Below, piece by piece: positions 2,743 to 51,628 of a stretch of 64,000 bases of DNA. The DNA comes from Odiellus spinosus (Eukaryota; Arthropoda; Arachnida; Opiliones; Phalangiidae): contig OY987230.1 in the NCBI GenBank assembly GCA_963920705.1, positions 21,167,320 through 21,231,319 of the forward strand. The letters run 5' to 3'. The translations under genes were made by a program, and so were the position numbers. The notes under the pieces were generated by a model. It was not told where the DNA came from, searched no databases, and saw nothing but the letters and a program-made list of their open reading frames with translations. How positions within the stretch are numbered: the stretch's first letter is position 1; every line of letters starts with the position of its first letter.

Positions 2743-3093
2743 CCGATACCAGAAGCCGATGAAACCCTCCTTTGAAGTCTATTACTCCCGGGTCTTGTCT
2801 ACCCCTCTCTGTATGGGTTATTCTCAAAAGGCGCGATCCGTACGCCTCCTAACGGTAGATGTTTTCGGAGCGGGAGCTCGTCGAGCGAATATCTCTAGCA
2901 ACCTTGGAGTTCGTCCAAAAAACGTCGTCGTTTGTGGAGAGAGAGAATTTCCAATTTTCCGTAGACAGGGGGGATGAAGTAGGACCCCTTCTAACTCGTA
3001 AAATTGGGAATTTTACCCATACAGAGAGGAGCGCTATATGGAACATTGGAGTAGTAGACTTCAAAGGAGGGTTTCATCGGCTTCTGCCGATAC
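2743..3093. mobile_element. 337-bp MITE (family M337), copy 1, with 7-bp TSD
   Basis: The element is 2750-3086 (337 bp), with 32-bp perfect terminal inverted repeats starting CAGAAGCCGATGAAACCCTC. It is flanked by the target duplication CCGATAC (2743-2749 and 3087-3093). No transposase is encoded. The short overlapping frames in it (for example the one starting MKPSFEVYY) recur in each copy because the DNA recurs, so it is read as non-autonomous. Superfamily not assigned. Confidence 0.95.
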
Positions 3094-3472
3094 TTTTAGT
3101 TCGGCTTTGATTTTTTGATATGGACTGTGGCTACTTCTCCGCGTTTTTAAACCTAATTACGACGCGCGTAACTTTGAATAGAATTTTACAGCTCGTTCTC
3201 AATATAAAGAAAGTTAAAAAGCGGACCTTTCTAAAGAAAACTCACTCCTAAGATAAAAAAAAGACCTCTTATCGCATTTTCCGTTACATTCTAGATAAAA
3301 TTTATTCGCGAAGGATTTACATAAACGCTTAAAGTTAAGGCGGATTAATACGTCATGTTAAACCCAAAGGAGATAAAAGTAGTTCTATAAATAAGGATGT
3401 AAGATTAGATTTTCTCCGCTAGGAGCGCAACTGCGATTGAGATCCAATAAGCGGACGACACGCGCAGTATGC

Positions 3473-3777
3473 TTAAAGGGAGAATGAAACTGATTTTTTT
3501 AACTATTCCTTATCCTTTAAATAAGCTTAATCCACCAGTATTAAAATTTACACAAATATTAAACTAGGATAAAATAGGGAATCCTGAATATCTTCGCAAT
3601 GAAGGGTAATCGACCAATCAGCAAAGGCGAGATCTCCAATAGCTGACCCTTCAATGCGAAATTAAGAATCAAGCCTATTTTCCGGGTAAGTTTTAAATTT
3701 ATTTCTGCTTTTGTATTTTTTTTTACAGGCGGACTAAGCCTATTTGATCGATAGGTTAGGTTTCATTCTCCCTTTAA
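3473..3777. mobile_element. TTAA MITE (AGGGAGAATG family)
   Basis: Element 3477-3773 lies between TTAA duplications (3473-3476, 3774-3777). The termini are AGGGAGAATGAAAC and its reverse complement. The interior is partly palindromic, with a CCAATCAGC/TAGCTGACCC core near 3610-3650. TTAA targets are typical of the piggyBac and Kolobok superfamilies; which one applies cannot be decided without a transposase. Confidence 0.88.
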
Positions 3778-3996
3778 ATGATCCTCTAGCGCTAGTTGTT
3801 GCTCTCTGTAGATGCGAAAATATTAAATTACATCCCTTTGGCAGCGGGAAAAATGATATCGGGTCATATATGCATGAGAAAAAAAAATAAAAAAAATGGG
3901 ACTGAAAGGGGATTAAAATATAAACAATATGGTGTCGTATTTATGCACCTTTTGTTTTCAGTAAGACAGGGCTAAGCCCCTTGGCCACCGTTTATC

Positions 3997-4373
3997 TTAA
4001 AGGGAAACTAGGAGCTAAAAATAGAACAGCTTTTGAATTTATTTTTGAAATCACCATGCCAAAATTAATTAATTGGTAAAATTTAAAAAATTTAAATAAA
4101 TATAAATTCGGGGTAATCATATTATTTGAGCCTTCAACAGCGCTCGTAATGTCCTAATATTAAAAGAATAGGCCATCAAACGAGGGCATATTCTTTTAAT
4201 GTTAAGACATTACAAGCGTCGTTGAAGGCTGAAATAATTTGATTGGCCGGAATTTATATTTACTATTTTACTTTAATAGAAATTTTACCAAAGTCTAGAA
4301 ATTAATTTAAACACGATGGTTCCGAAAATAAATTCAAAAGCTGTTCCATTTTTAACTCCAAGTTTCCCTTTTA
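3997..4373. mobile_element. TTAA foldback MITE (AGGGAAACT family)
   Basis: Element ~4001-4369 is an inverted repeat over nearly its whole length. The left end is AGGGAAACTAGGAGCTAAAA and the right end is its near reverse complement; the arms meet around 4160-4190. The left flank is TTAA, the right TTTA. A second member lies at 50349-50658, and a fragment near 55105-55135. The ends differ after AGGGA from the AGGGAGAATG group, so it is kept as a separate family. Confidence 0.82.
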
Positions 4374-4400
4374 GTAATTAACGTTTTTCAAACGCGTCTG

Positions 4401-4583
4401 TTAAGCCACGTTCACACTAGAGACTTTGAAATTGATTCAAACCGCTTAAAAACGTTTTCGCGAGAGTTGAAAGAACAGAAAACCAGCTACAGTTAAAACT
4501 AAAGCTACTTGAATGCTTGTTAATCTACATTTATTTTACGCGTGAACTTAACGTTTTAAGTTTATAGTGTGAACGCGTCTTAA
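4401..4583. mobile_element. TTAA MITE with CGTTCACACTA ends
   Basis: Element 4405-4579 is flanked by TTAA. Left end GCCACGTTCACACTA, right end TAGTGTGAACGCGTC. The related motif CGCTAGTGTGAACG occurs alone at about 50092-50105 as a probable one-ended fragment. No coding capacity. Confidence 0.75.
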
Positions 4584-5259
4584 GTTCCCTAAATTCCACC
4601 GTTACTTCGACTAAGGCGAACGCGTAAGAATGCGTGAATGTAAGGGAAGAAAAAAAAATCAATATCGAAGCTGAGGAAAATCAGGAGGTTTTTGGTGTTA
4701 TATAAAGGAAAAAGTATCGAAAAGTATATAATGACAGGCCTAAATGTCAGTCTATCGGAAGTATTAGGAGGGTCTTGCCATCATTGGTTGGTTTTGGTCT
4801 ATTCGTTTTGTCCCCCTTCCCCTATTCTTTTTCCTAAGGGTGATGGGAAAGACAAATGATTCTGGTAAGTAATAGAGCCTTGTCAAACATAGAGTCGGCG
4901 CCTTTAAAAAGCCATTTTTCACGACGCTGTACGGAGTCTGACGAGAGATCCGATATATATGTATCCAACAGATTTTGGTTTCCAGGGAACTAGGAGGGAA
5001 GATAAACTTCACATCTGATCAAATACCGCCAAAACTTGGTTTTTACTTTTTTTTATTCCAAGATTCGTTCGCGTTAAATAGGGTCTTTTCAAGAATATCA
5101 CGGATTTGAATAACTTTTATAAAATTTGGAACAAGATAAAAAACTCAATAATTTCTAAAATAGGGAAAATATATTCAAATTTTAATTATTCATTATTGAT
5201 TTATCTAAATTAAAAGTTTGAAAATTATGGGTTTACAAAATTGGATGAAAATGGAACAA
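4584..5259. other. Intergenic, no gene seen
   Basis: No exon or element is recognised. The 82-codon minus frame at 4764-5012 has no recognisable domain, no splice context and no repeat support, so it is treated as chance. Confidence 0.45.
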
Positions 5260-5309
5260 ATAATGCCGAGAAAAATATGAAATCTTGACTATTTTGGTCA
5301 TACTTTGGA

Positions 5310-5440
5310 AATAATAAAGTTTTCGCGCGGTTTTTTTTCGTAAAAGTACTTAATCCATAAAGTCTACGACCTTTCGGACGAAAATTATGGTTAATTACAT
5401 TCTAGAAATGTCATGTATGGAGGAAAAACACATTTTTGAC
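5310..5440. repeat. Dispersed repeat family R2, copy 1
   Basis: The block TTTCGCGCGGT..TTTTTTCGTAAAAGTACTTAAT and the following ACCTTTCG segment recur at 45588-45660. Weaker versions (AAAAGTACTT, ACTTAATTCAGATA) occur near 58340 and 58980. Class not identified. Confidence 0.6.
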
Positions 5441-5459
5441 ATTTTAATTTCGAAGTTTC

Positions 5460-5901
5460 TTAAAGGGAGGATGCAACCTAACAACAAGTGATTTTTTATC
5501 GATTCTTTATTGTTTAAATAGGCCTAATCCACTACTGAAAATATTTACAAACAAATATTAAACTGGAAATAAATTTAAAACTTACCTTGAAAATAGGCTT
5601 AGTGGGATTCATGGAGGTCCTGTTTTCCTCGCGTGTAAGGTCTAGCGACCAATCGCGCGCGACGTAAGTCTCGTGGAGATCTCGCGTGAACGACGGGCCT
5701 TCGCTCATTGGTCGCTAGACCTTACACGGACGCGATTCAGGATCTCCATGAATCCCGCTAAACCTATTTTCTGGGTAAGTTTTAAATTTATTTCTAGTTT
5801 AATATTTGTATTGTAAACTTTTTATCGATGGATTAGGCCTATTTACACGATAAGGAATCGATAAAAAAATCACTTGCAATTAGGTTGCATTCTCCCTTTA
5901 A
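5460..5901. mobile_element. 434-bp palindromic TTAA MITE
   Basis: Element 5464-5897 lies between TTAA duplications. Its ends are AGGGAGGATGCAACCTAA and the reverse complement of AGGGAGAATGCAACCTAA. An inner stem pairs GTGTAAGGTCTAGCGACCAA (near 5632) with its reverse complement near 5718-5737. Subterminal AATAGGCCTAATCC-type sequence is shared with the elements at 17178, 37573 and 55671. Confidence 0.9.
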
Positions 5902-6023
5902 GGACGCGTCAGAATCATTTTTTTTTCGTAAATAAATGCGAACATTGCCAAATATACAGGGTATTAGAAATAGCTAATCTTTGACTAAATCGAGGTTGGC
6001 TACAAGCCTGCAAGGTGGATAAG

Positions 6024-6032
6024 TTGGGGGGG
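6024..6032. repeat. G homopolymer tract
   Basis: A run of G in otherwise AT-rich intergenic DNA; likely length-polymorphic. Confidence 0.6.
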
Positions 6033-6290
6033 GGGAGGGTGGGTGGAAGACCCGGGAAAGAAAAACTACACGATTTTACACTTTAACGGTATTTGATATT
6101 TTCTTTCTCTACCTTTTGACTTTTTCTCGAATCCTGATGCAACCTTAATAGAATCACAGAGTTTACCTTTCAGCCTCAATAGTTCGTTTTTACTTTCACC
6201 CCTCCCACTTTTTTGCTATTTAAAGGGATAAGGAAATGCTTTTATATTTGATACTAAGGGTATAAGTGCTCGGAATTGGATCAAACCATT

Positions 6291-6850
6291 ATGTTCTGTT
6301 ATTCATATTTTTTCAGATATTTTATATAATAAAATAAATATATGTTTCAAATTGTTCTTATTAGAATTAAATAACTCGGATAGTTTTCTAGGATAAGTTT
6401 CTATTTTCGGATAAAAGGGATAAGATTATTATTTTTACTTTATCTTCGGATAATTTAAGTGGAATGATAGACTAGTTTTAACAAGAATCCATTCAGGTTC
6501 CATAAGAATATGGGAGGGCCGCGATTCAATAACTATCCTCCCAAACTTTGTAGCAAAAGTTCGTCCGCTTCGAATCGATTTTTCAAGTAAATCGCTCCAG
6601 ACATCTATTATTAACCCGCGCCACTAACGACCTTGACATAATATTTTGGGTAATAAAAATGGAGCCGACCGAAAAAAGATCTTAGCGTACAAATGTTGCG
6701 AAAATTGCGGACGAACTTTTGTTACAAAGTTTGGGAGGATGGTACCAGAGGCTAAAGCTATGCTCCCATATTCTTATGGAACCTGAATGGATTCTTGGTT
6801 TTAAGGAAACATAATATCTGTATACAGTTTAGTAGATCTATCCAATTAAC
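6291..6850 (+). repeat. Dispersed repeat family R1, copy 2 (split by a MITE)
   Basis: Collinear with 2041-2500 on both sides of a 316-bp insertion. The left part ends in TGGAATGATAGACTAGTTTTAA, the right part resumes ACATAATATCTG. In copy 1 the equivalent stretch is continuous. A TTAAAGGGATAAGG at 6220 and a CATCCTCCCTTTAA at 7047-7060 may be the ends of one larger TTAA element around this region; this is uncertain. Confidence 0.6.
6475..6804. mobile_element. 316-bp MITE (family M316) with 7-bp TSD
   Basis: Element 6482-6797. The terminal inverted repeats are 35 bp and identical, starting CAAGAATCCATTCAGGTTCC. The target duplication is GTTTTAA (6475-6481, 6798-6804). A second, internal inverted repeat of about 32 bp (CCTCCCAAACTTTGTA..) is separated from the first by short spacers, giving a two-stem foldback. 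Non-coding. Confidence 0.93.
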
Positions 6851-7060
6851 GAGCACTACGCTAAACATTCGAACCAGTATAAAATCTACAAGACATTTGA
6901 TTCATTTTTGGAATCAAAGCTAAGAATCTGTCGAAAATGCCTCACGATTCGGAGCCAATCAAAGAAAAGTCCCTAGATATATCGTAGTTTTTAAATTGTT
7001 AAGCCTATCTTGGAATTATTCTTAAGTAATTTAAATGATATAATTTCATCCTCCCTTTAA

Positions 7061-8434: not shown

Positions 8435-8862
8435 CTACTACCAGAGGTATATAATAGCCCCCTTCGGGGGGAAGTATGAAAGCCCCTATCCTACCAATGC
8501 TAAAAATCACGAACAACAAGAGCCCGCTGCTATCTAGGCCACTAGTTCGCGCTGGACTTCTCAATGTCGCTACTCTAGTAAATGGTCTTTGTATAAACAA
8601 GACGGCTCGATTTGTGTTTAGAACTTCCTGTCTCGGGAGTCAGGCTGTCTGTTAAAATGGAGTCGAAGGTTGACTTCAGCTCGCGAGTTCCGGAAGTGTG
8701 CGTAGGGAAAATTTAGTGAGGTTCAAAATGGTGTAACTATTTTTTGGGAGTAAAGCGGTGTGTCGATCCGCCGCGATTTACGCCGGGCACTTGTTGTTCG
8801 TCGATTTTGCCTACCTTTCATACTTCCCCCCGAAGGGGGTTATTATATACCTCTGCTACTAC
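8435..8862. mobile_element. 414-bp MITE (family M414) with 7-bp TSD and UUCG-like terminal hairpins
   Basis: Element 8442-8855, with terminal inverted repeats of ~41 bp and one mismatch, starting CAGAGGTATATAATA. The target duplication is CTACTAC (8435-8441, 8856-8862). Each terminal repeat itself contains CCCCCTTCGGGGG, a self-complementary C(TTCG)G mini-hairpin. The interior has no transposase frame. CAGAGG ends resemble hAT termini, but hAT elements normally duplicate 8 bp, not 7. Confidence 0.93.
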
Positions 8863-9975: not shown

Positions 9976-11103
9976 ATTTTCTAATTTTTGTAATAAAAAA
10001 GTAGCAAATAATTGCGAATTAAGCCTAATTATCGATGTTTAAAATTAAAATTTAACACTGTTGTATGCAACAGGGGTTAAAACTCGAGATCCAAAAGCTC
10101 TTGGCGAGAAAACGGTAGAATATTTTTCAGTGAAATTATTTATGGACGATTTTTAGACAATACTAACCTCATTTCAATAGGTTTAAATGAAATCCAAATC
10201 AGCTGCGTATTATTCATTTGCCAGACTTAAGTTTAACCACCACAAAAACCAAACATTAATGTTTATTTAAAATTTATAAATTTAAAAATTAGCTTTATTT
10301 CTTACGTTGACGTTATAAAAACCAAATTAGTTAATTAAAAAAAATCGTGTATTGAAAATGACGAAAATGGTCATTATCTATGTTATATTTGTCTTGGCAT
10401 AATAACTATAACATTAGTCCTAAAGCTAGAAGAACCTTTTCCAAAGGCTAAATTATAAAACAGGCCGCGCTATGATCGTAAAAACGTCGTCGAGACTCGA
10501 GGCTAGATATAATAACGGAAAAACCTGGTTTTCCAGGAGCTTAATGATGGCAAGCTCGTGAGATATACCTCGCTTTATTCTTCCGATTCCAAGCAAAAGG
10601 GGGGTTTCTTCGAGCTTAAATTTCTACGACGGCTTTTATCCCCTTTCCAACAAATACTACTTCATTAGCTCTAATCTTTCGAACGCGCCTTAGCCTTACC
10701 TACAATCATTAATCTGTGGAAAGCTCTAATGGTTATGACTGGCGGTCATTTGGAAACGTGCGTGGCGCGAGATCCAAAGCGGAAAAAGAATCAATTAGGG
10801 AAAGAAGCGCGCGAAACTTTTCCCGCCTTTTTCTATATAAGTCTATATCGTGTCTATTTCACAGTCGATTTGACAACGCGTGCGATGCTGAGCTACACGT
10901 TCTCTAACATTATTCGTGCAAGGATATAAAGTAAAGCATTCCTCGGCAGTGATGCCGAATCAAGGTTAAATTTAACGCGTAATAAAACGCGTTCGACTCT
11001 TTTAAGTAAATGAGTAAAAAAACCTGTAAGGTATTAGCTGGCCAATATTTTATTTTAATTCTGCCCCCATCATTCATTATTGTCTCAATTACGTCGAATA
11101 TCA
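9976..11103. other. Intergenic, no gene seen
   Basis: Contains two overlapping plus frames at 10716-10929 in different registers over the same bases. Neither resembles a known protein and both look like chance. Nothing else is recognised. Confidence 0.4.
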
Positions 11104-13098
11104 TATAGGTATATCGCGGGTGGGTTAGAATAATTGTTGTAAATGTGATTCGGTTAAGACCAGCAATGTAGAAACCATTTTCCAATCTCTCCTCATTGAA
11201 AAACAGTCAATAATTAATTGAAATTAACCAAAGTAGGAAATAAGACTAATTAAAACCTCTTTCTACGAATGGGTGCCTTGGAATAATTGTTTTAAATGTG
11301 ATTGGGTTAAGACCAGCAATGTAGAAACCATTTTCCAATCTCTCCAAATTGAAAAACAGTCACTAATTAATTAGAATTAACCAAAGTAGGAAATAGGACA
11401 AATTAAAACCTCTTTCTATGAATGGGTGCCTTGGAATAATTGTTGTAAATATGATTGGGTTAAGACCAGCAATGTAGAAACCATTTTCCAATCTCTCCAA
11501 ATTGAAAAACAGTCACTAATTAATTAGAATTAACCAAAGTAGGAAATAAGACTAATTAAAACCTCTTTCTACGAATGGGTGCCTTGGAATAATTGTTTTA
11601 AATGTGATTGGGTTAAGACCAGCAATGTAGAAACCATTTTCCAATCTCTCCAAATTGAAAAACAGTCACTAATTAATTAGAATTAACCAAAGTAGGAAAT
11701 AGGACAAATTAAAACCTCTTTCTATGAATGGGTGCCTTGGAATAATTGTTGTAAATATGATTGGGTTAAGACCAGCAATGTAGAAACCATTTTCCAATCT
11801 CTCCAAATTGAAAAACAGTCACTAATTAATTAGAATTAACCAAAGTAGGAAATAGGACTAATTAAAACCTCTTTCTATGAATGGGTGCCTTGGAATAATT
11901 GTTGTAAATATGATTGGGTTAAGACCAGCAATGTAGAAACCATTTTCCAACCTCTCCAAATTGAAAAACAGTCAATAATTAATTGAAATTAACCAAAGTA
12001 GGAAATAAGACTAATTAAAACCTCTTTCTACGAATGGGTGCCTCGGAATAATTGTTGTAAATGTGATTCGGTTAAGACCAGCAATGTAGAAACCATTTTC
12101 CAATCTCTCCAAATTGAAAAACAGTCACTAATTAATTAGAATTAACCAAAGTAGGAAATAGGACTAATTAAAACCTCTTTCTACGAATGGGTGCCTTGGA
12201 ATAATTGTTGTAAATATGATTGGGTTATTAAGACCAGCAATGTAGAAACCATTTTCCAATCTCTCCAAATTGAAAAACAGTCACTAATTAATTAGAATTA
12301 ACCAAAGTAAGAAATAGGACTAATTAAAACCTCTTTCTATGAATGGGTGCCTTGGAATAATTGTTGTATATATGATTGGGTTAAGACCAGCAATGTAGAA
12401 ACCATTTTCCAATCTCTCCAAATTGAAAAACAGTCACTAATTAATTAGAATTAACCAAAGTAGGAGATAGGACTAATTAAAACCTCTTTCTACGAATGGG
12501 TGCCTTGGAATAATTGTTGTAAATGTGATTCGGTTAAGACCAGCAATGTAGAAACCATTTTCCAATCTCTCCAAATTGAAAAACAGTCACTAATGAATTA
12601 GAATTAACCAAAGTAGGAAATGGGACTAATTAAAACCTCTTTCTATGAATGGGTGCCTTGGAATAATTGTTGTAAATATGATTGGGTTAAGACCAGCAAT
12701 GTAGAAACCATTTTTCAATCTCTCCAAATTGAAAAACAGTCGCTAATTAATTAGAATTAACCAAAGTAGGAAATAGGACTAATTAAAACCTCTTTCTATG
12801 AATGGGTGCGTTGGAAAAATTGTTTTTAAGTGTGATTCGGTTAAGACCAGCAATGTAGAAACCATTTTCCAATCTCTCCTCATTGAAAAACAGTCACTAA
12901 TTAATTGGAAATAGGACAAATTAAAACCTCTTTCTATAAATGGGTGCCTTGGAATAATTGTTGTAAATATGATTGGGTTAAGACCAGCAATGTAGAAACC
13001 ATTTTCCAATCTCTCCAAATTGAAAAACAGTCACTAATTAATTAGAATTAACCAAAGTAGGAAATATGACTAATTAAAACCTCTTTCTACGAATGCGT
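11104..13098. repeat. 153-bp satellite array, ~13 units
   Basis: The marker CAGCAATGTAGAAACC recurs with starts at 11161, 11314, 11467, 11620, 11773, 11926, 12079, 12235, 12388, 12541, 12694, 12848 and 12985. The period is 153 bp almost throughout, with one unit of 156 (an inserted TTA), one of 154 and one of 137 (internal deletion). Units are very similar. In the first part, two variants (GTTTTAAATGTG and GTTGTAAATATG) alternate, giving a 306-bp higher-order period. The unit has an AT-rich CACTAATTAATTAG core. Although 153 is a multiple of 3, no long frame runs through, so it is read as a satellite or expanded minisatellite. Confidence 0.96.
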
Positions 13099-13312
13099 GA
13101 GTTGTTAATAGGCCTAGTTTTAGATATCTGTATCATTTAAAATGAAATATATTTAACCAAGAATTTTGTTTTAATTGGATATACAATAAATTTATAGAAA
13201 GGTATCAGCTTATTCCTGAACAGTAATATATCGATGTGCAAATAATTAAATTCGTGGTAGTTTGGCTTGAATGTTTTAAGTCTAACGAATGGATAAAAAG
13301 CCTATTGGTTGG

Positions 13313-13875: not shown

Positions 13876-14590
13876 CTGTGGCAACCCTGATTGGATGTTT
13901 CTCAGAAATTTTCTGGCCCATATTGTCTACATTTGAATATTCCTTGCCATATATTGCTGAGTTGCCACAGTTTTTACAGATTCAAATTCTCTGAATTTTC
14001 CAGGTTTTTCCCTGACCTTTTCCAACGATTTTCCCTGACCGTTTCAGCTAATACTACCCAATTTTTAACCTTTTATTTATTATTCAAATCTTTTCTGCAG
14101 ATAATGATTGTAATTTCCTGGCTTCTTGAAAGATCTTTAAATTCCCTGACTTTTTAAAATATGTTTAAATTCCCTGACTTTTTAAAATATGTTTAAATTC
14201 CCTGACTTTTTAAAATATGTTTAAATTCCCCGACTTTTTAAAATATGTTTAAATTCCCTGACTTTTTAAAATATGTTTAAATTCCCTGACTTTTTAAAAT
14301 ATGTTTAAATTCCCTGACTTTTTAAAATATGTTTAAATTCCCTGACTTTTTAAAATATGTTTAAATTCCCTGACTTTTTAAAATATCTTAAAATTCCCTA
14401 ACTTTTTTGGTTAATTTTCAAATTCCCTAACTTTTTTGGTTAATTTTCAAATTCCCTAACTTTTTTGGTTAATTTTCAAATTCCCTAACTTTTTTGGTTA
14501 ATTTTCAAATTCCCTAACTTTTTTGGTTAATTTTCAAATTCCCTGACTATTCCATGATTTCCCTGTTTTCCCTGATCTGTGGCAACCCTG
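13876..14590. mobile_element. TTGCCACAG/GGCAACCCTG element carrying minisatellites, copy 1
   Basis: Bounded by GGCAACCCTG at 13880-13889 and again at 14581-14590, with GAGTTGCCACAG at 13959. The interior has CCAGGTTTTTCCCTGACC, then ~9 copies of a 28-bp unit (TTTAAATTCCCTGACTTTTT..) at 14131-14390, then ~5 copies of a 29-bp unit (AAATTCCCTAAC..TTGG..) at 14391-14540. Shares an internal stretch of about 55 bp beginning CTGCAGATAATGATTGTAAT with the copy at 20941. CAGGGTTGCC ends resemble hAT-type termini (inference). Confidence 0.8.
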
Positions 14591-17170: not shown

Positions 17171-17173
17171 TTT

Positions 17174-17760
17174 ATAAAGGGAGGGTCAAGTAACGAAACT
17201 AATTGTTTTTATTTGATTGCGAATAAAGCTAAGAGAAATTTAAAATCAACAAAAATTGTAAAAATATGAATTCAGCTAAGTCTATTTTGATTGTAAGTTT
17301 TAATTTTATTTCTAGTTTAATATTTGTTTGTACTTTTTTTTACTGTTGGATTAGGTATATTCAGAAGCCGATGAAACCCTCCTTTGAAGTCTATTACTCC
17401 CGGATCTTGTCTACCCCTCTCTGTATGGGTTATTCTCAAAAGGCGCGATTCGTACGCCTCCTAACGGTAGATGTTTTCGGAGCGGGAGTTCGTCGAGCGA
17501 ATATCTCTAGCAGCCTTGGAGTTCGTCCAAAAAACGTCGTCGTTTGTGGAGAGAGAGAATTTTCAATTTTCCGTAGACAGGGGGGATGAAGTAGGACCCC
17601 TTCTAACTCGTAAAATTGGGAATTTTACCCATATAGAGAGGAGCGCTATATGGAACATTGGAGTAGTAGACTTCAAAGGAGGGTTTCATCGGCTTCTGGT
17701 ATATTTAAACGATGGGAAATCGATAAAAAAAATTGTTGTTAGGTTGCATTCTCCCTTTAA
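17174..17760. mobile_element. TTAA-family MITE interrupted by an M337 element
   Basis: The host element is 17178-17756, with ends AGGGAGGGTCAAG and GCATTCTCCCT. The right flank is TTAA (17757-17760), the left flank ATAA. Removing the nested 337-bp element and one 7-bp duplication leaves ~235 bp with the subterminal TCTAGTTTAATATTTGT and TTAGGT..ATTTAAACGAT sequence seen in sister copies. The insertion shows that M337 moved after this MITE was in place. Confidence 0.85.
17355..17705. mobile_element. 337-bp MITE (M337), copy 2, nested
   Basis: Element 17362-17698 is exactly 337 bp. The target duplication is GTATATT (17355-17361, 17699-17705). Very few substitutions versus copies 1 and 4. The apparent 107-codon frame starting at 17266 runs from the host MITE into this element and is not a gene. 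Confidence 0.95.
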
Positions 17761-19694: not shown

Positions 19695-20332
19695 TTATTT
19701 GCAGAAGCCGATGAAACCCTCCTTTGAAGTCTATTACTCCCGGGTCTTTTCTACCCCTCTCTGTATGGGCAAGAAGGATCAGATAAGGAGAGGAAAAGTG
19801 GGGCTGCGTTGAGTTAGAGAGAGAAGAGCCAACCTCACACTCGGGTGGAAGGGGGGATAGGAAATTCTCGAGGTAAACTGTTGTCACGTGGTCGCTAGCT
19901 AGCGCGTCTCATAAAGGATTCGTTTTACCCACGTGACAACATTTTACCACGAAACGTCTATACCCCCGTTCTCCCAGAGTGGGAGTTTAGGCCGACGCAG
20001 TAGGAACCGCGCCGTCCCCACATTTCCTCTCCTTATCTGATCCTTCTTGGTATGGCTTATTCTCAAAAGGCGCGATTCGTACGCCTCCTAACGGTAGATG
20101 TTTTCGGAGCGGGAGCTCGTCGAGCGAATATCTCTAGCAGCCTTGGAGTTCGTCCAAAAAACGTCGTCGTTTGTGGAGAGAGAGAATTTCCAATTTTCCG
20201 TAGACAGGGGGGATGAAGTAGGACCCCTTCTAACTCATAAAATTGTGAATTTTACCCATACAGAGAGGAGCGCTATATCGAACATTAGAGTAGTAGACTT
20301 CAAAGGAGGGTTTCATCGGCTTCTGTTATTTG
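19695..20332. mobile_element. 337-bp MITE (M337), copy 3, split by an M291 element
   Basis: Outer element 19702-20325, target duplication TTATTTG (19695-19701, 20326-20332). It is interrupted by a 280-bp element at 19770-20049 plus its 7-bp duplication. 624 minus 280 minus 7 equals 337, exactly the length of the three other copies. Confidence 0.95.
19763..20056. mobile_element. 280-bp MITE (family M291), copy 1, nested in M337
   Basis: Element 19770-20049. Ends CAAGAAGGATCAGATAAGG and its reverse complement. Target duplication GTATGGG/GTATGGC (19763-19769, 20050-20056; one mismatch). The interior contains TTGTCACGTGG and CCACGTGACAAC inverted arms. Copy 2 at 51331 lies in the opposite orientation. 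Confidence 0.93.
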
Positions 20333-35343: not shown

Positions 35344-37421
35344 ATGGCTAAAGTTAATAGTGTCTCCGCGTACGTGTTTATCCTAATGGGTCTAGTTTTA
35401 CTGCGCGATCAAGCTAAAGCTTGGACGACCGAAGATTTGGAACTTTTTGATTTAGTAGAAGAAGTTAATCAAAATTTTTACGATTTACTGGGTTTGGACC
35501 AGGTAATTATTTCAATCCCTTAATATTTATTAAAATCTAAATTCTCTTACGGTAAAATTATCTTTCATAAGAGTGCCACATCGGGTGAAGTCAAAAAGGC
35601 TTACCGCAAACTATCTCTACAATTACATCCAGATAAAAATAAAGAAGAGGGTGCTGAAGAGAAATTCAGACACGTAAATAAAATTAATTAAAATTACCTA
35701 GGTGTACTTGAGTCTAATTTGCGCTTTTTCACCTAGATCGTAGCCGTTAGTGACGTATTAAAAGATGAAGCTCGTAGAAAACAGTATGTTGAGTATAAAA
35801 TAATGAAGTTAAAGTATTTTTTAACTCTTTTTCTTTCAACGCAGGTACGATGAAATCCTCATCAACGGGCTTCCAGATTGGAGAATGCCTATTTATTATT
35901 ATAGAAGAGTTCGAAAAATGGGTCTTACCGAAATGTTCATCTTCTTATTCTTACTTTTAACGACGGGACAGTATATCGTAGCTTGGTCTATGTATTGGGA
36001 GAAAAAATATGAAATTGTAAGTTAAATATATTAAAATTTAATTCTAAATTCTAATCCAAATCGTTTCAACAGGAAGAAGTTTTAACATCAAGATTTAAAT
36101 CTAAAAAAAAGAAAAAAGGTGGAAAAATAGTAGAAGATAATTGCGACGATATTATCGCCGATACCGTTAATCAAATTCCAAAACCAAGGTAATTATGATT
36201 AAGTTAATTTATTAAATAATAAATTAACTCCTTTTTTTTTCCTCCGTAGCATCTACGATCTTTTTCCGGTTACTTTAACCAAGTTATTAATTAGTAGTTC
36301 CATATATTTTGCCCAAAACTGGCGAGAATTTCTGAAAAAGAAAGAACCAGAAATTGAAGAATCTTCCGAAGACGAAATAATTGAAGGTACACGATAATAA
36401 AATAGGATAAATTTACATCGTTTTCAAATCTTTAAATTTTAGACAGAGTAAGGAAACCACGTAAAAGAGTCAAACCCGATCTTCCAGAGTTTTGCGATCT
36501 ACAAATGACGAATAATTCTCTCTGCAATAATAAAGAGAATCATTTAGAACCAATACGTGAAGAAGTAATTTAATATTTCGTACAATTTCTAACTGAAAAC
36601 CAGTTTTTTCAGCGATTTTGGTCCTTTATTAGATTGTTTTATGATTTTTTAAACTTTAATATTATTTTAGAGCGAAGTTATTTATTTAACGGAAGAATGG
36701 AACGAACGAGACACTTTAGCTCTCGTTAAAGCCATGAATAAATTTCCAGGTGGAACGATGGATAGATGGGAGAAAATATCGGCCATGATTAGGCGACCAG
36801 TGTCAGAAGTCACTTCCAAAGCTAAAAGTTTAAAATCATCTTCGTTAGTGACCAACGTTCCAACTTCATTACAAGGTAAAAATATTTCTAAGATAGATGG
36901 CGCTCTTAATTAACCCTCCAAAAATTACCATGCTGAGTTCCAGTTAACCAATCGTAATTGTTATTAAAACATTTTCCAGGAGTAACTGGTAACGACGATT
37001 TCAATGAATTTGTTCAATCACCGTTAACGTCAAACGATGCGTCGAATATTGACGAAAATCGTAACAGTAAAAAATTAAAGAAACTTAAAGGAAATGCTGA
37101 AAAAATTTTAACGCCGCAAATTGCTATTTCTTCCGCTAATGGCACGTTACAAGAAACTAAACGAGAGAACGACGCCATTTGGAGTCAAACGCAACAACGC
37201 GCTTTGGAGAATGCCTTGCAAAAATTTCCCAAAGGAACTGAACAGAGATGGGATCGCATCGCTGAAGAAATTCCTGGAAAAACTAAAGTATTAAACGATT
37301 TCATTTTAATTTCAAATGAGAATAAGAGAATTAAAACACCTTTTCTTTTCTTTAGGAGGAATGTATTATTCGATACAAAATGTTGGTCGAGATCGTAAAG
37401 AAAAAGAAATCAGTGTCTTGA
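35344..37421 (+). CDS. DNAJC1: DnaJ homologue subfamily C member 1 (complete, 10 exons)
   Basis: Exons: 35344-35502, 35572-35673, 35737-35783, 35845-36016, 36073-36188, 36250-36386, 36443-36564, 36671-36875, 36980-37287, 37356-37421. All phases join; 1434 nt, 477 residues (human 554). Residues 1-26 are a signal peptide. The J domain spans ~45-108 with HPD at 72-74 ([17 protein letters not shown]). [17 protein letters not shown] (111-127) is the family linker. A membrane segment spans ~132-154, then a Lys-rich cytosolic patch. SANT1 is ~291-341 ([12 protein letters not shown]) and SANT2 ~418-473 ([12 protein letters not shown] .. [14 protein letters not shown]). In vertebrates this ER-membrane co-chaperone stimulates BiP/HSPA5 with its lumenal J domain and contacts ribosomes or nuclear partners through the other end. 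Introns are 56-106 nt. AATAAA words follow the stop at 37445 and ~37475. Head-to-head with AF10, tail-to-tail with eEF1B. Confidence 0.95.
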
Positions 37422-39525: not shown

Positions 39526-40766
39526 ACGTGGCTTCTTATCTGTCCATTTTGATTGGCCAATTTAAAGCATGTGACATAAATGCCGAGACCATGGAGGAAA
39601 TATCCCTAGATCAGCAACGGTTAATTCAGTTACATAATATCTAAAAAAAAAAGTTTGTTAATTCAAGTCTCTAAGATATTTCGGCTCCACTGTTTTTGAG
39701 AATTTAAAAAATGTGAGAAAGCTCTTCTTTTCAACGAAGTTTTCTTACTAATTTGTCTTCAAGATAAAAGTTTCTAAAGCCAAAAAGTCATAACTTCAGT
39801 TACAACTTTATTTTAGAATTCTCGGTGAAAGATACTATTTTTGCAAATTATATTCTTATAAACAGTATTAGAGCTTAAATGTTTAAAATATTATTTAGAT
39901 AATCAAATTATAATAAAATATACGGAAATTTAAAGACATATCTTGCCATATTAGTTTTTCAAAAAGTAATGTTTTCAAGGAAATGGATTATACAACGATT
40001 TTGCACCAATAAATTTTAATAAATACACGAATAAATTAAAAAGGATTGTCTAATTTATAATAAAATGCAATTTCCAAAACCGAAATTAGCACGGCGTTGT
40101 GTTTTTCGCTAAGAAAATCGTGATATTTCCACCAAAAAAAAGAGGGGTTAAAACTTAAAAACAGAAAAACGGTCGTTTAACTTTTTTTCCCACGGATTTA
40201 TTCCTCGCCCAAAAACGACGCGAACACCTGTCGAATAATTCACGGATTGATGTATCGCGCACGAAATCATTAGCATATCTATAGTGGAAATTAACCCGAG
40301 AATTCAACGTTCCCTTTTATCATACATCAAGAGATAAAGGTTAGGTCTTGGGAAATCTCACGGTGATTCTGACTTGGCCAGAACTCTTTTTCTTCTAGTA
40401 TTTCTCTTATAAAACGGGTAAACCACGCTACGTTTAGAAGAAACAAAGGAAGAAAATTCATTAAAGATTAGCCATAACGTCATAGGGGGACCAGTCCCGA
40501 AATATTTACGCACGAAACCCTAATTTTTTAATCATTTCGCGTGTACTCTAACCACGCGATTTTTTTAAATTTCGAAAAAAAAAAACAAAAAAAACCCACG
40601 AATCTCCTATTATATTTGAAACTTTAAACTTCGAAATTAGTTTGATGATAACGATAGGTTGTATTCTAGATTTTCCAAGTTTGATCATAAGGTCAAACTC
40701 GAGAGAAAATAAAAACCAACTAGTCCTACACTACGGATCTTAGTTTTCAATTAGTAGTTTAAATAT
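39526..40766. other. Intergenic, no gene seen
   Basis: AT-rich; upstream of eEF1B. No exon or element recognised. Confidence 0.4.
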
Positions 40767-41485
40767 AAGTATTATTATTAATGAGACCGATACTTCATGG
40801 TTTGATACTCCAAAACTTTAATTTTTTGGGAAGCTTTCGATCGTCACAAGCGATCCTTTTCAACCCTTTCAACCAACTAAATTTTTTACAAAAATGTACG
40901 TTTTACAGAAATATTTTCTTGGAGTAAATCAAAAACCATATGAGGTCTCTTTTCTTCAATGCTTACTACTTCTTTTTTTTAGGGTGGAGGAAACTATTCA
41001 TGTCCCCCCAACCTTTTACGTTTACGTTGCCTGCGTCTAAATTCAAACCGCCCCTTTCACGTATAAATAGACTCTCCTTAAAGGTTCGGCGAAACCAATT
41101 TTTTTCTTTACACACCACAGACGCATTGTCCCATTCAATTGCGTGGCCCGATTTTGAGGTCCACATATGTTTAGCTAAACCATTAGATAAGTTTGCCTCT
41201 TTTACACACTTTTTATGTTCGCCTAATCTAATGTCTAAACTCCTCTTCGTTTCACCCACGTAGCTCTGACCACACGTACAACCCACTTCATAAACAACGC
41301 CTCTCGTCCCTTTAATTTCTTGTTTTGGTTTATTCCTTATTAAAAGCGAACCTAATGAACCTGAACTACTAAACACTAAATCCAATCCTAACGCCTTACA
41401 TTGTCGATTACTTTTCTCCGAAACACCTTTTACATAGGGTATCAAACCATGAAGTATCGGTCTCATTAATAATAATACTTATATT
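40767..41485 (-). pseudogene. Penelope-like retroelement, 5'-truncated: RT tail plus GIY-YIG endonuclease
   Basis: The minus frame 41466-40966 (166 residues) is the C-terminal part of a Penelope-type polyprotein: the post-RT segment (IPYVKGVSEKSNRQ, GSLLIRNKP), then a GIY-YIG nuclease. GIY-YIG hallmarks visible: GVVYEVGC, a CxC pair, YVGETKRSLDIRLGEH, GLAKHMWTSKSGH, WFRRTFKESLFIRE. In complete elements this domain nicks the target and the RT copies onto it; here the RT core is missing, so the copy is dead or a fragment. The segment encoding MRPILHGLI at the truncation (41468-41438, minus) is repeated inverted at 40778-40806 (plus), with the upstream ATATAAGTATTATTATTA. Penelope elements often carry such partial, inverted extra ends. 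Confidence 0.88.
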
Positions 41486-44070
41486 TATATCTCACCATGG
41501 TTAATAATTTTAAAATTAAAAATTAGTAGTTTAGTTGGCACGGACTAATTCTACTAGAAACTAATATTTCCTAACCCCAATAATTAAAGATTATCATTGA
41601 ACACCAATACACGTGCATTGAAAAGATGCGCTCCAATAGGAAATCAGGACAGCTTTAACATAAGTTTTACGTAAAAACATACGTGTAGGCAGCTGGTCGT
41701 TGCTAGCTCGAAACCACACCAAAGACGTTCATCTTGATGATTTGGCTACGCGCACTACATAGGGATATTATCATATACTTGATTTTATCGCGTACTTTAG
41801 CTTCATTATTGTACTTATGGTCATATTTAGAACTCTTAGAGTACTTTCGGACGCGTGTTTTATGACAAATATCGTATATCAGAGATATATGTTACAGATT
41901 AGAGTGGAAATTCCTCACACAAATCGTGGGCGACATTGTCACTTCGAATATCGTCAAGATAGAGGGGGTCCTCTAGAAATCGGAAGACGGTATTTTTTTG
42001 TAGAATCTTTTTCCAAAGAAATATAGCCTGAAACATTTAAACGCGGCTTCGGGCGATTGTCGACCAAATGGCCAATTAAAACACACCAAAATCGTTTAAT
42101 ATTTTCCCAATCTATAATTACTTTTCAACCCAACCGGGCAACCAGCGGGTAAATTTACAAGACCGAGTATCGATGTAAGTGGGTACCAGTAGCTGGTTAC
42201 GTCAGCCCCACTATCATTAAAGGGAGCGTGAGCCTTGTATCACCTAATTCTTAACCTTTTCACGTGGTACCAATTATTACGTCCTATTAACAAATATACG
42301 TGTAATTATTAGTTTTCATTAAATCGGAGAATATACGTTTCTTAAGGGCAGTTGACACTGGTTACTTATGGACGTAGTCTTAAGGAATGTAACTATTAAT
42401 GGCAATTAACCCAGCAGTAAAGGACATATATCTTCGAAACGTGGACGTGATGGAATCACGTTAAAGATTCCATGATTTAATTTAAGATAATTACAATTTT
42501 TCCTCGGGGCCGTCGCATGCCCAAAATTTTACATAGGACCATGCTTACCTCCCCTCCATCAAACGTCTGGCGGAATTTTTAAGTACGACAACACCATTAA
42601 TTAATTGGCACCATAAAAGTTAGGTAAGACTAATCAAATTTTAGGTAGGACGCTTCTCACGTCTTCAGAGCCGTATTAAGCGTCCCCTAATATTAAAATC
42701 GATTCAACATTCACTGCGCCATTCACTGGGAAAGGCTTTAACTCAGATAGTCCCTAACAGCGTTAGATGTAGCCCCATAATTATAACATAGAGCAGTTTA
42801 ACTATGAGTGGCACCAATTGCTACCAGAATCCTCCAGGTTCACAAGCTACGTTAGGCCCGGGTCTTACGATTGTGGCGACATCATACTAGGCCTTGGAAT
42901 CGATTTAAACCGTTTCAAAACGATTCGCAAGAGTCGTGTGAACGGGAAACCGTATTTTCTCGAATCGATTTGATTCGTTTTCTAGAAACTGCTTCGGGAA
43001 CCAGTTTCATACCGATTCGGCTGGTTTCAACAACCGATAGATCAAGCTACGATAAATCGATTTATAACGATAATGCGTGAACGGATGACGCTTTAAACGA
43101 TTCCTCGCGATTTGAATATCGGTTTGATCTAACCATTTCAAATCGATTAAGAAATGCTCTATTAAACTAGTACTCCCTCCTCCAAGTCCAGACGATTGGC
43201 TTGAATATACAAGATTCTAAAAACCGTGGTAAATGACGCTTTCGAAGTGTTATAATAATATAAATTTTTAAAAATGTTTTCCGGATTGAACAGGGAGCTT
43301 TCACTCTCCCTTTACCTGATTAACAGGTAGCACAGGAAGACTTAAATACTTTCTTAATAACACATTTATACCGTATCATTTCTGACATAAAAACTACTAA
43401 CCACTGTAATTATCGAAAACGCATACAGGATCTCCCAAGTCCTCTAATTCTATAATCTATCAATATTATATACGTTATAAGTTTGTAATTATTTTAGCTA
43501 CCGAATATTATATACTTGCTCGCAACCTGGAAAGAGACGCGAAACGCCGAGGGAACAAAACTATTCTATACGGGAAATTGAGATCATTCCAAGTTCGCGA
43601 AAAAGCGTATCCCAAGTTGGGAATGTTTAACATCACGCAATAGTTTACTTTATGGTATATCGGGGGGAAAAAAACGTAATTACTAGGTATTACAAAAATA
43701 TATTTAGCAATTCTTGAATATTAAATTTATTTTAAATGAAATTCTTCTGTTTTAGATAAGTTGACGACGTTATTAAACCGAACTCGGACGAATACGCAAT
43801 GTTTTAAATCATAGAGAAAAAAGTCTATTCGCACTAACTCCTAAGAAAGAATATAATATTTAAAAAAATAATGGATTAAAACTTGAAATCCAATTCTCAA
43901 ATACCAGATAAGTATAATTACGTTTAATTTGAGCCTAGATTTTAACAATTACGTATCGGGAGAATAACGAATGGTAAAAATACGATTCAAGCATCTGATT
44001 ATCTTTCATTATTCTTAAAAAGTAGTGAAATTATCGCCAAGAGAAATTTTAATGATCTAAAACAAATGCA
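41486..44070. other. Intergenic with solo TTAA-element ends
   Basis: No gene. TTAAAGGGAGCGTGAGCC (42217) and TTTCACTCTCCCTTTAC (43298-43314) could be the ends of one ~1.1-kb element or unrelated fragments. 42895-43150 is rich in AAATCGATTTGA/CGATTTG words, like 50040-50090, and may be an old MITE interior. Short plus frames at 41817 and 42871 are not supported. Confidence 0.45.
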
Positions 44071-45665: not shown

Positions 45666-46143
45666 CTGACATTTGTACGAACCCAGAATATTTTAATTTA
45701 TAAAATAAAATGAATGGTTTTAAGTTTTCAAAGAATTACAAATGGATTCTCGATTCCTTCCTGTATTTAAGTTTTTATAAAAAATGAAAATTTTCAAAGA
45801 AAAAATTTGTTTCATATGAAAAAAAAAACCACGTAGAAAAATCATTAACATCTCTGTTAAATATAGGTTTCAAAGCTTAAATTATCTTTCATTAATTAGA
45901 TTCTATACTATGATCTTAAATATTTTTACAATCTTGGAAGGAACAAACTAGAAACGTTACCGCGGAGGGATATTTTAACGCGCCTGTATAAGAATTAATT
46001 TTCTTTCAAGAGTGAATGTCGAAGGGGCAGTATAAATGGAAGAATCATTAAATTGTAAAAGCATTTTTGGGGTCTTTAACATCAAATATATAATAATTTT
46101 CATAATACGTCCATGATAATATTACGACTTATTAGGAAGTAAT

Positions 46144-46338
46144 CATCACCTCTGTCTGGCTCGAGTGATTTGAACTCTTCCTCGATATTTTGAGTCGGGA
46201 GAGAGGGAATGAATTTGGGCGGGCCGCGCTTGGCTATATTGGAATTTCCCGAAGAGTGGCGCTTCCGATTTCATTACATGCCGACTGCGGCCGCTAGAGT
46301 GTCTCGAATAAGAATCTGCCGGTACATTTACCCGGATA
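46144..46338. repeat. ~190-bp well-conserved repeat (R4), copy 1
   Basis: Matches 56935-57118 in inverted orientation over its whole length, with long identical runs (CTCTTCCTCGATATTTTGAG, AGAGTGGCGCTTCCGATTTC, GGCCGCTAGAGTGTCTCGAA). The frames in the two copies differ, so it is non-coding. One strand contains GAGTTCAAATCACTC, a T-arm-like inverted repeat, so a SINE origin is possible. Confidence 0.75.
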
Positions 46339-46694: not shown

Positions 46695-47045
46695 ATAGTA
46701 TCAGAAGTAGATGAAACCCTCCTTTGAAGTCTATTACTACCGGGTCTTGTCTACCCCTCTCTGTATGGGTTATTCTCAAAAGGCGCGATCCGTACGCCTC
46801 CTAACGGTAGATGTTTTCGGAGCGGGAGTTCGTCGAGCGAATATCTCTAGCAGCCTTGGAGTTCGTCCTAAAAACGTCGTCGTTTGTGGAGAGAGAGAAT
46901 TTCCAATTTTCCGTAGACAGGGGGGATGAAGTAGGACCCCTTCTAACTCGTAAAATTGTGAATTTTACCCATACAGAGAGGAGCGCTATATGGAGCATTG
47001 GAGTAGTAGACTTCAAAGGAGGGTTTCATCGGCTTCTGATAGTAT
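46695..47045. mobile_element. 337-bp MITE (M337), copy 4
   Basis: Element 46702-47038, 337 bp. Target duplication ATAGTAT (46695-46701, 47039-47045). The left end has two substitutions (CAGAAGTAGATG), otherwise nearly identical to copy 1. Confidence 0.95.
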
Positions 47046-48466: not shown

Positions 48467-49731
48467 GTTGAAACGTGTCAACCAAAGGGCACAAGTTCTT
48501 ACTTTTGGGCCGTTGGAGGACGCTTGTGAAACTGGCCAGTTTTCCTTTATTAAGGTGTCAAGTAGTTAATAGTTCAAAGCCTAGATCAGCGTCTCCCTTC
48601 TATCATTATCTTCTTCTCATACAGAGTTGACTTTGTGTAAAGTGGGTTGCCAAGTTTTCAGAGAAAGAAGAGAGAAAGATGAGAGCCCGAAATCGTGTGA
48701 CCAGTAATTAACGAGAAAGAGGTTTAAGAGGAAGTAAATATTTCTTCGTGGCGCGCTATAAAATAAACACCTGCTGGTGGATGGATGCGTGCTAGAAGAA
48801 AAGGGAGACATGGCGTTGCTGCGTGTGGAGTCCAATTTGCGCAAGATAGATGGATGAATAGGCATGAATAATTTACATTCCATATAAAATGGGTAGGGAC
48901 GCTACATATGTGGAGAAACGCGCGGTTATGGTCGAGATTCTCTTTGAACAAATTTTGGGGGACCCACGAAATAATTAACGATGCAAAAATGATTTTAAAA
49001 CCTTAATTTTTGAAGAGACGTACCAAATACAACAATATCAGCATTATTATTATTTGTATTAAAGGTATCACGTAAGGCTCAAAGTTAATAACGAAGTTAC
49101 GAGCTAAACTTTATCATTTTAGGTATTATTTGACGGCGAGTTAAGTTCTTTGAAATCTAAATCAACACGAAACTAAATCACGAAATAGTTAAGCCTAATT
49201 TCAGAAAAATAATCACCGAAAATCATCTTGTACGATCACGGATTCACGGTTGCCACGAATATCGTGTAGCTAAGAGTTTTACGCCTTTTAAAGTAGCCCG
49301 TATTTCACGAGTTTAGTTTTAAAAACTTGACTCCGATTTCGTCCACAAAATTGAATACCCTACAATAGAATATAGAAATTTTCAAATATCACGCTAACAG
49401 ATATCGAGAGCTCGACTGAAAAGCGTGAATTATTTCGTGGTTTATTGAAAATTAAATATAACTAACAAAGGTGCCGTATAAAATATTTCTGTAAAAAATA
49501 ATTTAAAGTAAAATTATGCAAAATTATTTTCACGATAACGTCATGAAACTAGCGCGCGTGAACCTGCAATTTTTCGCCAATTTTAAGTTTTGCACCTGCC
49601 TCAATATTCAAGTTTTTTTTTTTTCCAAGTGATTCTGTCTCTAGTAGTTTTTTTGAAGGTTTATGTATTTTATATTTCTTTCTTTAATAAACCTATTTTA
49701 CAAATTTTGTACCTCCGAGGTTGACGCGTAT
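48467..49731. other. Intergenic, no gene seen
   Basis: Overlapping minus frames at 48617-48951 in two registers indicate chance openness. No element recognised. Confidence 0.4.
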
Positions 49732-50040
49732 TTAAAGGGAGTGTGAAGAAGAAAAATAAGCGTTTTATATCTATTCGACTATTAACGACTCATAATTATG
49801 CAAAAAAATTGAATATATTCAGATTTTGGCATTCAAATAACAGAGAGCCTTCGACTAATTAAAAGACTTGTACCTTTGTCTTCGTAAAATATCCGCGACA
49901 AGCGCTGTTGTACGCGCACGATTCTGCGCGAGAAACGTATCAAGAATGAGCTAGAATTCAGAGGACACTTTCTGAATGGTTTACTACGCGAACGTTTCTT
50001 ATTTTTAGAAGCAAAAATCAATAAAAATTAAAACGATTTA
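49732..50040. mobile_element. TTAA MITE, AGGGAGAGTGAAGAG subfamily, copy 3 (one end)
   Basis: TTAA plus AGGGAGTGTGAAGAAG at 49732, with the subfamily interior (GGCATTCAAATAACAGAGAGCC, GACTAATTAAAAGAC). No right terminus found; 3' truncated. The 62-codon minus frame is inside it. Confidence 0.6.
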
Positions 50041-50344
50041 GAGTTGATTTGAATATCGATTTGATTTTATCGTTTCAAATCGATTTGGATACGCTAGTGT
50101 GAACGTAGCTTTAGTCACGCGTATTATATTGAATCATTAGCATTTTTTCCGAACTTAAAATCGCATTTGGATCTCGTATCAGTGTTACTTTATTATTATT
50201 ATTATTTTTATTTTATTTTTTACAACAAGCTCTTCCTCCGCAAAACTTGAATTTGATCTTATCCTATCGGGCGTTGAAGTTTTTGAACTGAAATTAATAT
50301 ACTTTATATCTCTACATGTTTAAATGTTTATTAAAATTTAATGA

Positions 50345-50662
50345 TTAAAGGGAAACTTAGAGCTAGAAATTTTATTTATTTTCGGAATCACCATGACGAA
50401 GAACGTATTAGAGTTTTTTCCGAATTTTTAGACACGTTTTTGGAGTTTAAATTAATTAAATTAAAATTTGAAAAATGGTAAATATAAATTCGAACCAATC
50501 ATAGCGCTTGTAATGTCATAACATTTAAAGAATAGGCTTTCGTTTGATGCCTAAACCTTGTCCAAAAAAGTGTCAAAATATTTTTAAAAAATTTCGAATA
50601 CGTTCTTTGGTACGGTTATTCCGAAAATAAAATAAAAAAAATAGCTTCAAGTTTCCTTTTAA
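50345..50662. mobile_element. TTAA foldback MITE (AGGGAAACT family), copy 2
   Basis: Element 50349-50658 between TTAA sites. Ends AGGGAAACTTAGAGCTAGAA and AGCTTCAAGTTTCCTT. Inner CATAGCGCTTGTAATGTCATAA corresponds to the core of the copy at 4001-4369. Confidence 0.75.
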
Positions 50663-51323
50663 ATCAAAATATCAAAATCTTCGAGTGGGCGCATGTCGAA
50701 TATATATAGATATATTTATATATATTTTTTTTTGGCAGTCGATGAAATTTTTGAAAAGCCATTAAACTTTTAAACTTTATATAAAAGATAATGAGGGAAT
50801 TGACGTCATAGCAATTTCTTTTTTTTGCCTAAAGCTCTACATTTGAAAAGAACTAACTTTCAAAGGGAACGTATGTAGGCTATATTTGAAAGTTTTTTTT
50901 CCTATTAATTAAGTCAATGTCGTCTGCTTATTCGATTTCTTATTATTACTATTGAGGCTTCAAAGGTAATATATAATATTTATTTATGAATTCCAGATTT
51001 AGTCTAATTAAAAATAATCATAGCGTTGCGTTTAATCATGATTTAATCGAACCAAAGGTAAGTTTTGTACGGAACATTGAACTATTCCTTTAAAAATCTT
51101 TAACGATCATTTTGAAACACGAATTTAACAGGAATAATTGGCAGTCGAGTTATAGCTGTTTTTCAAATGCAATGAGAAAGATCATTTTTCACCATAATGT
51201 ATAAAAATTCCTGTATTTTTAGCCTTACTTAACTCCTACCAAGGGGTGGGTCTTGGTTATTATATTTTCCGTAGATGTAATACGTTTGGAGACGACCATG
51301 ATCGTGTAATGTAAAAGGATGCA
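50663..51323. other. Intergenic, no gene seen
   Basis: AT-rich with a TATATA-rich stretch at 50700-50735. No gene. Confidence 0.4.
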
Positions 51324-51628
51324 GTAATATCAAGAAGGATCAGACAAGGAGAGGAAAAGTGGGGACGGCGCAGTTCCTACTGCGTCGGCCTAAACTCCCA
51401 CTCTGGGAGAACGGGGGTAGAGATGTTTCGTGGTAAAATGTTGTCACGTGGGTAAAACGGATCCTTTATCAGCTTCGTAGTAGCCAACGACGCTAGTGAC
51501 CACGTGACAACAGTTTACATCGAGAATTTCCTATCCCCCTTTCCACCCGAGTGGGAGGTTGGCTTTTCTCTCTCTAACTCAACGCAGCCCTACTTTTCCT
51601 CTCCTTGTCTGATCCTTCTTGGTAATAT
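51324..51628. mobile_element. 291-bp MITE (M291), copy 2
   Basis: Element 51331-51621, target duplication GTAATAT (51324-51330, 51622-51628). Terminal inverted repeat starts CAAGAAGGATCAGACAAGG. The interior runs in the opposite orientation to the copy nested at 19770, and includes CACGTGG/CCACGTG arms around a variable centre. Confidence 0.95.

Follow-up and report, generated by a model that had tools for sequence, protein, structure and literature searches.

What moves short elements whose interiors are unrelated but whose termini open with the same letters and whose insertion scars have the same length? The question is raised by a 64,000-nucleotide stretch of the Odiellus spinosus genome, hereafter the window (assembly GCA_963920705.1, contig OY987230.1, forward-strand positions 21,167,320 to 21,231,319). 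Here, the original prediction had recognized eight insertions of four unrelated families of miniature inverted-repeat transposable elements (MITEs), named M337, M291, M316, and M414 in this study, with CA-starting termini and 7-bp target-site duplications (TSDs). The present study indicates that these insertions are very probably non-autonomous MITEs of the P superfamily, moved by a P transposase. Membership in the P superfamily is established for M291, as its two halves are found at the ends of a longer element coding for such a transposase, and is probable for the other four families, including a fifth one, M325, that the prediction had missed.

All eight insertions were located at their predicted duplications, seven with an exact 7-bp duplication and the eighth, an M291 copy nested in an M337 copy, with a 6/7 match (Table 1). 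The nested M291 is 280 bp long and 90% identical to the M291 copy at 51331-51621, and the interrupted M337 measures 624 bp (337 + 280 + 7). Since the empty site GTATGGG occurs once in each of the three M337 copies of the window that carry no insertion, the nested insertion made a 7-bp duplication that later acquired one substitution. A scan of the window for 14-bp terminal inverted repeats (TIRs; up to two mismatches, 100-2000 bp) with an exact duplication gave eight matches at 7 bp, namely seven of the eight predicted insertions and M325. All eight start with CA, as predicted, and their TIRs have the CA...TG ends that are a feature of the P superfamily. Other lengths in the same scan gave 11 matches at 6 bp (one with CA), three at 8 bp (none with CA), and none at 9 bp. 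Twenty windows simulated by a Markov-1 model that keeps the dinucleotide make-up held four 7-bp matches in total and not a single CA start; a chance origin of the 7-bp CA signature was therefore rejected. The predicted lack of relation between the family interiors was also confirmed, with local scores no better than those of 60 shuffles in nine of ten pairs, the pair M337-M325 being marginal (25 vs a shuffle maximum of 24). The TIRs are 39 bp long in M337, 41 bp in M414, and about 90 bp in M316. Thus bounded by TIRs, 291 to 414 bp long and present in high copy number, the families have the features of MITEs, whereas an origin by internal deletion was found for M291 only.

Does the 7-bp scar hold outside the window? 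In the 443-Mb assembly (286 contigs), we tallied 50 distinct insertions, those of the window included. The duplication is exact over 7 bp in 40 of them, matches at 6/7 in six, and at 5/7 or fewer positions in four. By family, exact 7-bp duplications were found in 13/17 insertions of M337, 12/13 of M291, 6/7 of M316, 8/12 of M414, and 1/1 of M325. No exact 8-bp duplication occurred among the 50, so the prediction of a strict 7-bp length, to be refuted by 8-bp or variable duplications genome-wide, came through this check. A duplication of 7 or 8 bp is a feature of the P superfamily. The hAT superfamily, for which an 8-bp duplication is expected, was rejected as a family assignment. Outside the window, the copies of M337, M291, M414, and M316 came mostly from the top of the similarity lists; therefore, young copies are over-represented in the tally. 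Five other M325-type left ends (L108 to L112), being diverged, rearranged, and without a usable duplication, were left out of it. A scan of the ~363 bp read at these five loci gave no match for a right end; by eye, a right end, though diverged, can be made out in two of them, where the flanks agree at 5/7 (L108) and 2/7 (L112).

The families are both abundant and, in part, young. The 40 best-scored copies are 99 to 100% identical to the query in M291, 98 to 100% in M414, and 97 to 100% in M316, and the best-scored M337 copies are mostly 92 to 97% identical to a query that was part of the nested M337 copy. The terminal 20-mer of M316 (up to two mismatches) gave 2,946 + 2,942 = 5,888 matches, which are not to be read as copies, against 0 + 1 for its reversed control; the terminal 31-mer of M325 gave 379 + 395 = 774 matches against 0 + 0. 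A source of transposase has presumably been active recently.

The element that links M291 to the P superfamily is L068. The reverse complement of M291 aligns by its positions 7-157 to L068 1054-1204 (85% identity) and by 159-291 to L068 6761-6893 (90%), leaving a single M291 base between the two blocks. These ends flank a THAP exon (PF05485, 1.6e-10) together with a frame of 786 aa that matches PF21787 (2.9e-24), PF21788 (1.6e-14), and the solved Drosophila P transposase 6p5a (9.8e-8). The M291 ends hence enclose the THAP, RNase H-like, and GTP-binding transposase characteristic of the superfamily. M291 is thereby shown to be an internally deleted P element, derived from an element like L068. 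At L068 1205-1446, exactly at the M291 junction, another element of 242 bp is nested, whose ends read CAGGGAC and whose 8-bp duplication is CTCATAAA. From its CAGGG tip and 8-bp scar, we take it to be hAT-like. Its position accounts for the single M291 base between the blocks. Beyond it, the left end of L068 carries, by eye, two further matching bases at which the halves meet, a match that is not significant and no better than shuffles.

L068 itself is old. Its own duplication has decayed to flanks matching at 4/7, and by eye its left tip bears an 11-bp insertion; both points count against the reading that we prefer. A 7-bp "duplication" CTTCTTG seen there was rejected as an artefact of the damaged tip. 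Such damage is what one might expect if L068 were no parent and two M291-like copies flanked a P transposase gene by coincidence. Another M291-like MITE does lie near a P locus (L070 7163-7435), and in a second copy of the L068 family (L091/L092) the M291 ends were not seen where expected. However, each flank of L068 matches mainly its expected M291 half and does so inward to the same point (157-159), the flanks are oriented as in one element, and L035, an element with clean ends, is similar in size (about 5.3 kb vs 5.9 kb). We therefore consider such a coincidence very improbable. L035 is the nearest relative outside the L068 family, 55 to 69% identical, with CA ends and a clean 7-bp duplication.

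If M291 is a deleted P element, then how do intact P elements of this genome insert? The P transposase profile PF21787 gave 386 first-look candidates, of which 150 were scored, and the 150 matches listed are all above the cut-off; in control genomes, it was found in 0/14. Many of the listed matches lie on contigs C1, C2, and C45. Nineteen P loci were read on both sides, as long stretches at 14 and end stretches at L035, L036, L014, and L017, plus L085. TIRs together with a duplication delimited a P element at eight of these 19 loci, with 7 bp in seven cases and 8 bp in one; the limits of L068 were set by its M291 ends. Five of the eight (L035, L039, L043, L046, and L072) start with CA, as the Drosophila P element also does. 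Among the proteins tested, THAP, RNase H, and GTP-binding domains all occur, though not each domain in each frame. In a midpoint-rooted transposase tree of 26 rows, in which L043 is represented by a piece of 364 aa and long branches occur in some other rows, L068 pairs with L035 at full support inside a supported group of 11 rows. The four delimited members of this group (L035, L039, L071, and L072) all have 7 bp, as do the three of another group (L041, L043, and L067). The 8-bp element, L046, falls in a third. The element ends of L014 and L017, two further members of that third group, were not found; therefore, the 8-bp length of the group rests on one element.

The original prediction had called the strict 7-bp length unusual, with 8 bp for most P elements. 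That this length points away from P elements is not supported, as 1360 and Galileo, both of the P superfamily, make 7-bp duplications (PMC3276498 and PMC4168063), and so do seven of the eight delimited P elements here. Thus, the 7-bp scar is a known trait of the superfamily rather than an anomaly.

Near the P loci, further elements were noticed. Another P transposase, belonging to the L045 family, lies at L085 1594-4433 (G000:C1:518300-522800), about 10 kb from the P element L067. Furthermore, two short elements with CA ends and good TIRs, at L042 1106-1359 and L044 88-817, have the 7-bp duplications CGCAGAG and GTTCATG, respectively, and are unlike the five families.

The choice of target offers an additional character. 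Among 35 MITE insertions with exact duplications, taken as positions 1 to 7 and not symmetrised, T is found at -2 in 21 sites, at 2 in 26, and at 5 in 21, and A at 3 in 20, at 6 in 28, and at 10 in 29. This motif is palindromic and extends past the duplication, as is usual among TIR elements generally (PMC3276498). The preference is common to the three families with at least eight sites when each is taken separately, the counts for T2/A6/A10 being 9/8/11 of 13 in M337, 9/11/8 of 12 in M291, and 6/8/8 of 8 in M414. The core NTANTAN of the MITE sites resembles the GTANTAC of Galileo (PMC4168063).

Parents of the other families were sought by scanning for MITE ends in L009-L046, L067-L072, the ends of L035/L036, L093-L097 (one end each), and L091/L092. 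The expectation that long elements with the family ends would hold a transposase between them came true for M291, in L068, with a P transposase; for M337, M316, M414, and M325, no such element was found in the P loci scanned. L093-L097, whose transposases are the closest to that of L068, and L091/L092 had no MITE ends in the expected places. Besides L068, the scans returned a full M291-like MITE in L070, a 118-bp fragment of an M337 end at L067 6262, and a 39-bp M325 end at L046 1320. The M337 fragment was rejected as the start of a parent, as the 12 kb onward (L073, L085, and L090) has no M337 right end; this tract holds a THAP fragment and the second, L045-family P transposase. The M325-like right end in L046 was likewise rejected as part of a parent, for there is no second end in the upstream L074.

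This outcome for four of the five families, with scan matches that amount to a complete MITE and end fragments, weighs against the P reading, and several other observations add to it. No duplication was accepted at ten of the 19 P loci (L040, L042, L044, L045, L069, L070, L036, L014, L017, and L085), besides L068. L045 has weak candidates only, of 8 bp (TGACGTCA) and 9 bp (AGAGAGAAA), with three TIR mismatches each. Three delimited P elements lack the CA start, L041 and L067 beginning with CG and L071 with CT. Conversely, two short CA-starting elements near P loci, L068 1205-1446 and L073 716-1254, have 8-bp duplications; a CA start plus a short duplication is therefore not diagnostic alone. 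When symmetrised, the sites of seven P elements lean to GTYNRAC, vs RTANTAY for the MITEs, in a small sample from seven families. The lean of the P elements resembles the GTTNAAC of 1360 (PMC3276498). At most, this difference hints that the MITEs are served by P elements other than those sampled.

It might be argued from these observations that, with M291 in the P superfamily, at least one of M337, M316, M414, and M325 is nonetheless moved by a 7-bp transposase of another superfamily. Apart from the parents not found, the interiors of these families are unrelated to that of M291, and for M325 a single insertion shows an exact duplication. On the other side, all the families share CA...TG ends and, in most of the copies read, a duplication exact over 7 bp, the preference for T2 and A6 is alike in M337, M291, and M414 separately, and the 7-bp P elements of this genome are several and diverse. 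We hold such a mixed origin to be unlikely. The original prediction had also mentioned Dada-type transposons, which give duplications of 6 to 7 bp. Dada shares with the families here the duplication length only. The Dada paper describes elements without TIRs that insert in multicopy small-RNA genes, whereas the TIRs of the present families are clear and their targets AT-rich and dispersed (the targets were not compared with RNA families), and the M291 parent codes for a P transposase. The Dada suggestion was thus abandoned, its probability being close to nil.

The most likely agent is therefore a P-superfamily transposase. A P transposase with a THAP domain and an RNase H fold, supplied by full-length P elements at other loci of the genome, would bind the MITE ends in trans and excise the element. 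The element would then be joined to two target positions separated by 7 bp, and gap repair would leave the 7-bp duplication. In the P superfamily, cut-and-paste transposition depends on GTP and cleaves the donor with a 17-nt stagger. P transposases of the 7-bp kind presumably move M337, M316, M414, and M325 as well. The proposal that one transposase, or closely related ones, mobilises all the families is sustained at the level of the superfamily by the CA...TG ends, the 7-bp length, the target shared in three families, and the kind of transposase tied to M291. The data do not extend to a single transposase for all families: the P elements form a diverse set whose termini differ, and only M291 could be traced to a parent. 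One could go further and envisage a radiation of P transposases with 7-bp spacing in at least two groups and 8 bp in another, the 7-bp ones cross-mobilising MITEs of unrelated ends via the CA tip and a TA-N-TA preference. We regard this extension as unlikely; if true, the duplication length would characterise whole groups and could, within a single genome, be mapped onto the transposase.

Table 1. MITE insertions of the window and P elements of the genome, with their target-site duplications
Feature	Position	Strand	Length	TSD	Span with TSD	Remark
M337 copy	window 2750-3086	+		CCGATAC	2743..3093	TSD at 2743-2749 and 3087-3093
M316 copy	window 6482-6797	+		GTTTTAA	6475..6804	
M414 copy	window 8442-8855	+		CTACTAC	8435..8862	
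M337 copy	window 17362-17698	+		GTATATT	17355..17705	
M337 copy	window 19702-20325	+		TTATTTG	19695..20332	M291 nested inside
M291 copy	window 19770-20049	-		GTATGGG/GTATGGC	19763..20056	nested in M337; 6/7 match
M325 relative, diverged, partial	window 46143..46316	-				82% to M325 positions 57-232; ends not preserved
M337 copy	window 46702-47038	+		ATAGTAT	46695..47045	
M291 copy	window 51331-51621	+		GTAATAT	51324..51628	
M325 copy	window 56885-57209	+		GTCAAGC	56878..57216	fifth family; terminus CAAAAGTCTATGACTT
P element L068	G000:C2:22244300-22252200, element 1037-6893		5,857 bp			ends = M291 halves
P element L035			about 5.3 kb	CCCTGCT (7 bp)		ends L086/L087
P element L039			5,670 bp	GTCTGTC (7 bp)		
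P element L041			3,777 bp	TTTGAAG (7 bp)		
P element L043			4,140 bp	ATCCGAC (7 bp)		
P element L046			5,207 bp	CGCCAACC (8 bp)		
P element L067			4,581 bp	GTTTATA (7 bp)		
P element L071			5,318 bp	GTAGAAT (7 bp)		
P element L072			4,609 bp	GTTAAAC (7 bp)		

Several other features of the window deserve mention. At 40760-41487, 630 bp lie between two 49-bp arms of 100% complementarity, and one of the arms is overlapped by a 170-aa frame on the reverse strand (40969-41478) for which Pfam gave no family. By its motif, we take this frame to be the GIY-YIG endonuclease end of a retroelement. At 54492-54987, three inverted-repeat pairs, one nested in the other (97%, 92%, and 88% complementary), form a foldback-like block. 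An inverted-repeat family is common to 5492-5868, 17266-17361, and 55860-55935, with a related stretch, by eye, in L046. Tandem arrays occupy 11001-13124 (153-bp unit), 14033-14580 (28-29 bp), and 61281-62224 (23 bp). The frame at 36958-37395 has a Myb-like stretch below the Pfam cut-off (21 bits vs 24.4) and is perhaps, as we assume, an exon of a DNAJC2/ZRF1-like host gene.

The present study thus traces a puzzling shared 7-bp signature to an identified transposon group and ties M291, a very young family by the near identity of its best-scored copies (at least 99% in all 40), to its kind of transposase. With 7-bp and 8-bp P groups beside abundant young MITEs, this genome is a good system for asking which features of the transposase determine strand-transfer spacing. 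The same genome is suited to asking how far a transposase other than that of the parent can move a MITE.

Among known systems, the P-MITEs of Anopheles gambiae offer a close parallel, as ten families are tied to six of nine P subfamilies in one genome (PMC1562414). As in M291, their ends come from a full-length P element; their middle is not P. They differ in having 8-bp duplications and families of 5 to 310 copies, compared with the 7 bp and the 5,888 terminal 20-mer matches (not copies) of M316 here. 7-bp TSDs are mentioned in PMC12730594 and PMC3169594, and titles and abstract beginnings of the open literature, which do not cover Repbase-type records, gave no 7-bp P-MITEs outside Drosophila. 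In Drosophila, the modal duplication of 1360/Hoppel is 7 bp (274/279 insertions), in contrast to the 8 bp of the P element, and its motif GTTNAAC is matched here by the GTTAAAC of the P element L072 (PMC3276498). 1360/Hoppel is unlike the present MITEs in sequence, host, and motif, theirs being NTANTAN. Galileo makes mostly 7-bp duplications at GTANTAC/GTATTAC, with three 8-bp copies (PMC4168063); its TIRs are long and internally repetitive, whereas those here span tens of bp. The Drosophila P element and zebrafish Pdre2 combine a P-superfamily transposase with internally deleted copies, as found here for M291 and L068, and differ in their 8-bp duplication; the TIR of Pdre2 begins with CATACC and so has the same CA start as the families described here (PMC7776569 and PMC10983969).

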